Shown here one piece after another: positions 17,341 through 21,606 of a DNA stretch of 35,669 bases. Numbering within the stretch: the first letter of the stretch is position 1; every line of letters starts with the position of its first letter. Source of the stretch: Promethearchaeota archaeon Loki_b32 (GTDB lineage Archaea > Asgardarchaeota > Lokiarchaeia > Sigyniarchaeales > SOKP01); the NCBI GenBank assembly GCA_005223125.1, contig NJBH01000037.1, positions 1 to 35,669 of the forward strand, read 5' to 3'. Under the pieces are notes generated by a model. That model had not been told where the DNA came from, made no database searches, and was given only the letters and a program-made list of their open reading frames with translations. Made by a program: the position numbers and the translations under genes.

Positions 17341-17949
17341 ATGTCAAATGATAAAAAAGAAGGAAAATTAGTGTTCCACCAACGGACTGAGATGATCTTC
17401 AAAATCATTGTTATTGGAGACCCTGCTGTCGGTAAAACAAGCCTTTTGACAAATTTCTGTGGTGATAAGTTTAATTACGAATACATACCGACGGTTGGTG
17501 TAAATATAACAAAGGAGCCCGTCACTATAAAGGATGATATGGGTAAAGATTCTACAGTGAATCTTATGATTTGGGATATAGCGGGACAATGCAATTGAGG
17601 CTTCCTCCTTAGCGTCAACCCACAGTTCTATATGCTACATCGCCCTTACTTTAACGGTGCTGATGGAATGATATTAGTTTATGATATTACACGTTCGAGT
17701 TCATTCTCAAACATAAACAATTGGTGGAGTACTTCAATAAAATATGGGCTTAGCGCTATCCCTCGCATCCTAATCGGCAACAAAATAGATTTAAAAGATG
17801 ATCGGAAGATAATCCTTCCAATGGCGGAACATTTAAGTGAAAAAATTAGCGCACCTTTTTTTGAAACATCCGCAGTAACGGGAGAAAATGTGAAATCAAT
17901 CTTTCAAAAAATAGCAGAATTAGCTTTACGTTCAAAATTAGAGGAATAA
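17341..17949 (+). CDS. Rab/Ras-like small GTPase interrupted by a 30-nt in-frame insertion
   Basis: Two open segments in the same frame (17341-17598 and 17632-17949) together encode a complete ~190-residue Ras-superfamily GTPase. The first has the P-loop GDPAVGKTS, switch I YIPTVGVN and G3 WDIAGQ. The second has FNGADGMILVYDITR, NKID and ETSAVTG. Removing bases 17590-17619 gives WDIAGQ-PQFYMLHRPYF, exactly the Rab switch II pattern. As written, the frame reads CN-stop (TGA 17596-17598) right after GQ. The ATG at 17632 lacks a ribosome site and would make half a G domain. Both halves are otherwise intact, which argues against long-standing decay. There is no C-terminal prenylation Cys. Nearby SWIM-LRR and longin-GTPase genes suggest a signalling cluster. 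Confidence 0.8.
17590..17619 (+). other. Structured 30-nt insertion with stop codon; candidate BHB-type intron or bypass element
   Basis: The 30 bases are 50% G+C against ~30% around them and split codons between GGA-CAA (Gly-Gln) and CCA-CAG (Pro-Gln). They fold: GAGG (17597-17600) pairs with CCTC (17604-17607), and GC (17591-17592) with GC (17612-17613). At the base, GAC (17585-17587) pairs with GTC (17614-17616), leaving AAT (17588-17590) as a 3-nt bulge. ATATAG (17576-17581) pairs with CTATAT (17628-17633) further out. Cutting that bulge after its second base falls exactly at the inferred 5' junction, as in archaeal bulge-helix-bulge introns. The 3' bulge is not canonical. Confidence 0.5.
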
Positions 17950-19848: not shown

Positions 19849-21606
19849 GTGAGCAATCTGTTTGATTTTGATATGGAAGATATTGGATTGGAAAAGTTAG
19901 AAGAAGATATACAAATTTTAAAATTACCTGAATTAACGGAAAATGAAAAAAATATTATTAATCCTATTGTAGCACCAACGTCAGGTTTACGAATTCAAAT
20001 CCTTGATGTTTCCATAAAGGATGATAAAGAGAAATACATATTAACTAAAAGAAAGTTCTATTTATTTCTTAGAGTGTTTAAAGCTATTAGCCAACAATTT
20101 AAAGAAAGGAAGAACAATCAAAATTTGAAAATTCTAATAGTTACTGATAATCGACCAACAAAAGAGGTTTTATTACAATATTGTTCTCAGATTTTTACAT
20201 ATGATGGATATGAAGTCTATTATCAACAGGATGAAGAGGGAAAATCAAGGATCTCTGCCCCCTATGGAGCAGCATCAGTCGCCTTATATGAAGATATTAA
20301 CCTTATCATTGTTTTAACAGCAAGCCACAATGATTTATCTTGGAATGGAATGAAAGTGTATTTTGATTACCCAATCCCTCTCTCTGGAGATTTATTTAAG
20401 AATATATCAAGGAAAGCTTTAGAACTCAAAGAAATTAGATTAAAACCAGCAAAACATATTACTATAGAAGCAGAAAAGAAAAATAATGATTATGTTGTTA
20501 ATCTATTATCAAAAACTCTTGAAATTAAGAGTATAAAGGGAAAAAATATAGTTATTTGGCCATATTTAGGGAAAGCTCGAGGTATTGTTAATTTATTTAA
20601 ACATTACGGGGCTAACGTTACACTCGTCGAGGAAGAACTGAATCCTCCTAATCCTATAAAGAATTTGCAGGAAATAAAATTACAAAAGATAATGAATCAA
20701 GCTAATTCAAATATTGCGCTTTTACTGGACGCTGATAGGGATAGGATTGTATTATATGTAAAACAGAATGGAGAATATTTCACATATATACCTAATGAGA
20801 TCTATAGCGCTATGCACAATATTTTAGCAAAAGAATATGGTAAAAAAGTTATTAATGTTAGAACAATTCCTAGCGATTTACGAGGAGATGATACAAGTTT
20901 TATTAACATCCTGACTGGAGTTGGTTATAAACATTTAGGTGTTATTATGTATTTTCTCCTTGGTATTGAAGTAGATCAATCTAAAATTGACACTGCTATT
21001 CTGTATGTTGAAGATGAGGATAAAAATTTAATAAAAATTAACAATGCTGCCCCTTTAAGACAACAAATAATTAAATTAATGAAAAAGCAGAATTTAGAGA
21101 AAGAATCATTCTTAATGGTATTTTGGGAAGAAAGTGGTGGACACACTCTAAATATTTTGGATGTTTCTAAAAATAGTGAGACAGATGAATACGATTTTAG
21201 TACTGATTTTGCAATTATTGCTGATAAGTACCCTGTTCCAGCATTAGTTTTAATAACAGAACTTATATGTAGGGGCTCAGTTATTTCTGAATCAATTGAT
21301 TGGACTATAAAAGGTATTAACCGCACAATTCCAGCTGTAGATGAAGAAAAGATCAAAATAATGAAGAATTTTGAGGTAAATGATGGAAAAAAGATTACTA
21401 TTAATGAAAAGAACTATGAAGTCCATGCTTTATCAGATAATAACGATATGATTGATATTTATCAAATTAAGAGTAAAGATTCAACACTTTATTTCCGGCC
21501 AAGTGGAACAGGACCAGATGTTAGATTTTATATTTTTGGTAATGTAAAGACTCATCTAGAAGAAATACATAAACTAATGGAATACATTAAGAATAAATTC
21601 AAATAG
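19849..21606 (+). CDS. Alpha-D-phosphohexomutase family protein (phosphogluco/mannomutase-like)
   Basis: A 585-residue member of the phosphohexomutase superfamily, which moves phosphate between C1 and C6 of hexose phosphates. The phosphoserine loop is TASHND (S159). The metal loop is DADRDR (D294, D296, D298), a variant of DGDGDR that keeps all three Asp. The sugar-binding loop is EESGGH (427-432). The phosphate-binding loop is RPSGTGPDVR near the C-terminus. Catalytic residues are all present, so it should be active on a glucose-, mannose- or glucosamine-type phosphate. The first ~40 residues are an extra acidic tail. The start is GTG at 19849 next to AGGGTG; ATG 19873 is an alternative. It follows the longin-GTPase gene by 41 bp and is probably co-transcribed. 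Confidence 0.87.
   Translation: MSNLFDFDMEDIGLEKLEEDIQILKLPELTENEKNIINPIVAPTSGLRIQILDVSIKDDKEKYILTKRKFYLFLRVFKAISQQFKERKNNQNLKILIVTDNRPTKEVLLQYCSQIFTYDGYEVYYQQDEEGKSRISAPYGAASVALYEDINLIIVLTASHNDLSWNGMKVYFDYPIPLSGDLFKNISRKALELKEIRLKPAKHITIEAEKKNNDYVVNLLSKTLEIKSIKGKNIVIWPYLGKARGIVNLFKHYGANVTLVEEELNPPNPIKNLQEIKLQKIMNQANSNIALLLDADRDRIVLYVKQNGEYFTYIPNEIYSAMHNILAKEYGKKVINVRTIPSDLRGDDTSFINILTGVGYKHLGVIMYFLLGIEVDQSKIDTAILYVEDEDKNLIKINNAAPLRQQIIKLMKKQNLEKESFLMVFWEESGGHTLNILDVSKNSETDEYDFSTDFAIIADKYPVPALVLITELICRGSVISESIDWTIKGINRTIPAVDEEKIKIMKNFEVNDGKKITINEKNYEVHALSDNNDMIDIYQIKSKDSTLYFRPSGTGPDVRFYIFGNVKTHLEEIHKLMEYIKNKFK

Follow-up and report, generated by a model that had tools for sequence, protein, structure and literature searches.

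The gene for a Ras/Rab-like small GTPase in the DNA that we analyzed (hereafter the window, a stretch of 35,669 nucleotides corresponding to contig C63 of a Lokiarchaeal genome of 4.13 Mb) carries a 30-nt interruption at positions 17590–17619 of the forward strand. Comparison with related genomes indicates that this insert is very likely an archaeal bulge-helix-bulge (BHB) pre-mRNA intron that is removed by the tRNA-splicing machinery. Such an intron was the first alternative put forward in a sequence-only reading of the window, and it is the best supported of the explanations offered there. The BHB view is strengthened by a second, independent BHB insert in the same gene, by 30-nt introns in tRNA genes and by the presence of a two-subunit splicing endonuclease. 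Support for the intron in the window comes mainly from its relatives, as the BHB of the window copy is itself weak.

The interrupted GTPase gene and its orthologues

The interrupted gene spans 17341–17949 (forward strand) and encodes 192 aa once the insert is removed. Exon 1 (17341–17589) extends from the start to WDIAGQ and carries the P-loop, switch I, and the start of switch II, while exon 2 (17620–17949) runs from PQFYMLH to the stop. Both exons were delimited by alignment with uninterrupted orthologues, from which the 30 nt are absent. In the ORF list of the window, the break is flanked by ORFs 17341–17598 and 17632–17949. The coordinates, frame, internal stop (TGA, 17596–17598), and 50% G+C content that the sequence-only reading had given for the insert were all correct, and the ATATAG/CTATAT pair that it described is present at 17576–17581/17628–17633. 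Excision of 17590–17619 does restore switch II, as had been claimed, with a product (WDIAGQ/PQFYMLH) identical to that of uninterrupted orthologues. When joined without the insert, the gene matches one full-length Ras domain (E 2e-46); the unjoined halves give two partial Ras matches (E 3.1e-15 and 6.7e-25). The junction peptide of the spliced GTPase would span IWDIAGQPQFYMLHR.

Orthologues of the GTPase are present in most genomes of the class, and the close relatives of the window gene are from Candidatus Lokiarchaeota MAGs. Comparison of these orthologues, which had been suggested as a check, revealed that uninterrupted genes join exactly at 17589/17620. The gene is uninterrupted in species of the genus with 71–91% protein identity. 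Internal stops in full-length orthologues were flagged in only three of the 83 class genomes searched: those of the window, LW60_5 (G007, stretch L017), and YT1_007 (G005, stretch L020). The LW60_5 orthologue (87% identity), in an independently assembled genome of another species, is interrupted at the identical base by the same 30-nt insert. The YT1_007 orthologue (80%) has a different, unrelated 30-nt insert with a TAG stop in switch I, at TVGV/NITK, which would represent an intron of separate origin. Inserts were present in 3 of about 60 GTPase orthologues, and in this one gene only. Two further internal-stop flags among the 83 genomes, G013:C165 and G040:C150, were partial matches, and the former was rejected as an insert because it is a fragment whose stop is an ordinary one. 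A search of 65 genomes with the window insert sequence matched the two orthologues and nothing else. In the GTPase gene tree, the window gene groups with that of its closest relative, G018, which is without the insert, a pattern that requires either its loss or its gain more than once.

BHB structure, tRNA introns and splicing enzymes

The borders of the inserts were scored against the BHB rule (4-bp central helix, 3-nt bulges, and a cut after base 2 of each bulge) at the frame-restoring register. In the window, the exon strand of the central helix (GGAC, 17584–17587) pairs with the intron strand (GTCA, 17614–17617) through three pairs and a G.A. The 5' bulge (AA^T, 17588–17590) has its predicted cut at 17589/17590, the frame-restoring junction, and the 3' bulge (AC^C, 17618–17620) at 17619/17620. 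An intron hairpin, GAGG-CTT-CCTC (17597–17607), forms in both the free and the BHB-constrained folds. The outer exon–exon helix, GCG (17581–17583) with CAC (17621–17623), contains one C.A mismatch in the window and is perfect in LW60_5 (GCG/CGC). The short exon–intron helix and the 3-nt bulges are present at the junction first described, but the outer helix is broken. Because of that break, the window score of 16 is only moderately unusual (P about 0.004–0.006), and a wrong register scores 17. The LW60_5 BHB at the same register, GCG GGAC AA^T GCAA...TTGC GTCA AT^C CGC, scores 26 and is clearly exceptional (P 5e-5 to 8e-5). The YT1_007 insert, GCGT TA^C AAGTTAGA...GCGT AA^A, has a 4-bp central helix and an 8-bp intron hairpin and scores 23 (P 0.0015 over 7 equivalent registers). 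Shuffling of the introns gave P values of 7.5e-4 for LW60_5 and 3e-3 for YT1_007. In both of these genes, the BHB cutting rule at the frame-restoring register yields the ancestral protein.

The claim that the insert is structured is a weak one, as its region in the window does not fold better than shuffled sequences (z -1.08; 30 of 200 shuffles fold at least as well). In both the window and LW60_5, the BHB fold is 5–7 kcal/mol less stable than a fold with a 3x3 internal loop. We rejected this minimum-energy fold as the recognition motif, and the BHB register is preferred, since cuts in the 3x3 loops would replace a conserved Gln by a different residue, which would be His if the cuts fell after base 2. 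The corresponding gap for proposed tRNA introns of the genus was 0–10 kcal/mol, and in most of those tested the BHB is likewise not the minimum-energy fold.

About half of the tRNA genes in these genomes carry introns, which form a +30 length class. In the five genomes analyzed (G000, G005, G007, G008, and G012; e.g., L190 1–102 and L204 1–102), tRNA gene lengths were mainly 71–75, 81–89, and 101–107 nt, with none at 91–99 nt. Intron length was measured by matching the spliced tRNA to an intronless relative at 82% identity or more, and 11 of the 12 introns measurable in this way were 30 nt, the remaining one being 28 nt. These 30-nt introns occur at several tRNA positions. The gene for tRNA-Gly(GCC), for example, is intronless in the window genome, whereas its G012 counterpart is interrupted in the T arm and its G005 counterpart at 37/38, in both cases by 30 nt. 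This is the same behavior across species as that of the GTPase gene.

The search for a tRNA-splicing endonuclease that had been proposed earlier recovered two PF01974 subunits, alpha (catalytic) and beta (structural). The catalytic subunit (L206, 675–1283) is closest to the Aeropyrum type, with best matches to PDB 3p1z/3ajv (Aeropyrum). By alignment, it has a Lys at the K44 position (Aeropyrum numbering) of the specificity loop, that is, a crenarchaeal-type loop Lys. Both the two-subunit type of endonuclease and this loop Lys are linked to broad specificity. The genome also encodes an RtcB ligase. We hypothesize that the alpha and beta subunits would cut each 3-nt bulge between its second and third bases, at 17589/17590 and 17619/17620, and that RtcB would join the exons to give WDIAGQ-PQF, as it would for the numerous 30-nt introns in the tRNA genes of these genomes.

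Frequency of inserts and alternative explanations

Further inserts of this kind were sought in several ways. In a homology-free scan, in which clusters of in-frame stops were scored for BHB, the LW60_5 and YT1_007 inserts ranked 1st and 2nd of 53 sites. They were also 1st and 2nd of 397 in a scan of 2 Mb once two antisense-shadow ORFs were dropped, these shadows being the rejected sites that had scored above the two GTPase inserts. The site ranked next, G007_C13:117677 (score 22), resembles a normal boundary between genes. Homology scans covering about 2 Mb of sequence, drawn from several genomes within the genus, singled out just the three inserts in the GTPase gene; apart from a 77-nt gap described below, the remaining gaps were antisense ORFs, gene ends, or plain protein indels. 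No further such insert was found among about 612 gene instances compared with cross-genome homologues. Internal stops were absent from the search lists for other clear Ras genes of the window genome, bar one weak 55-aa fragment, and none was seen among the matches listed for ABC domains of three genomes or flagged in cbf5 of the genus (19 genomes). Stops flagged at G013:C42 and G010:C116 were, together with G013:C165, normal gene ends or a fragment; a stop was also flagged at G001:C107. The background rate of such inserts is about zero, and mRNA introns of this kind are rare.

Two other loci were noted during these comparisons. At about 191333 of G005:C83 (minus strand), a 77-nt gap splits an ORF that is continuous in its G007 homologue, likely a case of two genes versus one. 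In G012:C1, in the orthologue of window 19849–21606, a stop replaces a Trp codon inside an otherwise aligned ORF, which may be due to sequencing error or recoding.

That 3 of about 60 orthologues are affected, in one gene only, and that the window BHB is imperfect would be compatible with the inserts being recent or tolerated disruptions, with no full-length protein made in these species. Selection on the gene makes this improbable. Between the window and LW60_5 GTPases, dN was 0.086 and dS 1.59 (dN/dS 0.054), with per-half ratios of 0.054 for exon 1 and 0.049 for exon 2. Both halves are under strong purifying selection and synonymous sites are saturated. A test for a pseudogene found neither relaxed selection (dN/dS 0.054) nor further lesions, and substitutions at columns invariant elsewhere were as few in the interrupted GTPases as in intronless orthologues. 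The insert is itself conserved, based on its identity of 24/30 (80%) between the two species in comparison to 25/56 (45%) at 4-fold sites. In addition, the length of each insert is an exact multiple of three, and its removal is clean. The recent disabling insertion considered in the sequence-only reading is therefore rejected, as a second species also has the insert even though synonymous sites are saturated between the two, and purifying selection acts on either half of the gene.

Programmed bypassing, in which the ribosome would hop over the gap, is a slightly poorer candidate still. The segment bypassed in phage T4 gene 60 is, like the GTPase insert, short and structured, and its stop codon lies close to the take-off site. 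In both the window and LW60_5, the TGA is immediately preceded by a conserved AAT codon and the resume codon by AAC/AAT, and in YT1_007 a 30-nt hop from GTT to GTA would go from valine to valine. However, unlike in T4 gene 60, the 30-nt hop that would restore the frame in the window and in LW60_5 pairs a CAA take-off with an AAC/AAT landing, codons that do not match. The AAT hop would add CN to switch II, residues found in no intact orthologue, and has no YT1_007 counterpart. Bypassing also leaves unexplained the BHB registers and the 30-nt length shared with tRNA introns. Readthrough of the TGA, another earlier suggestion, would add 10 residues to switch II.

It is very unlikely that the two ORFs, of 85 and 105 aa, give separate translation products that then reassemble. 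An ATG (17632) is present 4 codons into exon 2; however, a start there would lose PQFY of switch II, the YT1_007 gene is split elsewhere, and BHB structure is present in both inserts. An assembly or sequencing artefact is the least credible explanation. The named insert-bearing relatives are known from metagenome assemblies, but two species that were assembled separately, and whose flanks have diverged, have the same insert, and hundreds of other gene instances are without similar inserts.

Known introns and biological significance

The closest parallel to the proposed BHB intron is provided by the pre-mRNA introns of crenarchaeal cbf5, which are 16–44 bp with BHB or relaxed BHB borders, depend on a hetero-oligomeric splicing endonuclease, and show patchy gain and loss; a 2009 paper states that cbf5 was at that time the only gene with confirmed archaeal pre-mRNA splicing (PMC2738675). 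The GTPase insert is likewise a short intron candidate in a protein gene, within that size range at 30 nt, with a hetero-oligomeric endonuclease, a patchy distribution, and BHB-type borders that are clear in the two relatives and weak in the window. It differs in being in a Rab-like GTPase gene of an Asgard host, with two independent sites in one gene and a length that matches a 30-nt tRNA intron class, and its splicing is predicted from sequence. Among Asgard archaea, Atabeyarchaeia and Freyarchaeia have many tRNA introns at non-canonical positions, as described in one report (PMC11291895). The tRNA introns in our genomes are similar in their unusual positions, and the same BHB cutting rule fits; here, in contrast, such introns would also be in an mRNA, and clustering at 30 nt was not found in the passages of that report consulted here. 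We found no report of mRNA BHB introns in Asgard archaea in the openly licensed, non-preprint literature. The kind of intron is thus known from crenarchaeal cbf5, the gene is new, and the finding is apparently novel for Asgard archaea.

We tentatively raise the possibility that a class of BHB introns with a fixed length of 30 nt is spreading in these Lokiarchaea, at many tRNA positions and occasionally into protein genes. If so, a single gene would acquire introns at sites that vary from species to species, and intron gain would be ongoing among relatives of eukaryotes, perhaps via a route such as reverse splicing and reverse transcription.

Asgard archaea are relatives of eukaryotes, and this kind of mRNA intron is rare. 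If the GTPase intron is confirmed, it would mean that gene finders truncate such genes, that intron gain and loss inside one genus are directly testable, and that the tRNA-splicing enzyme would serve the mRNAs of eukaryote-signature GTPases.
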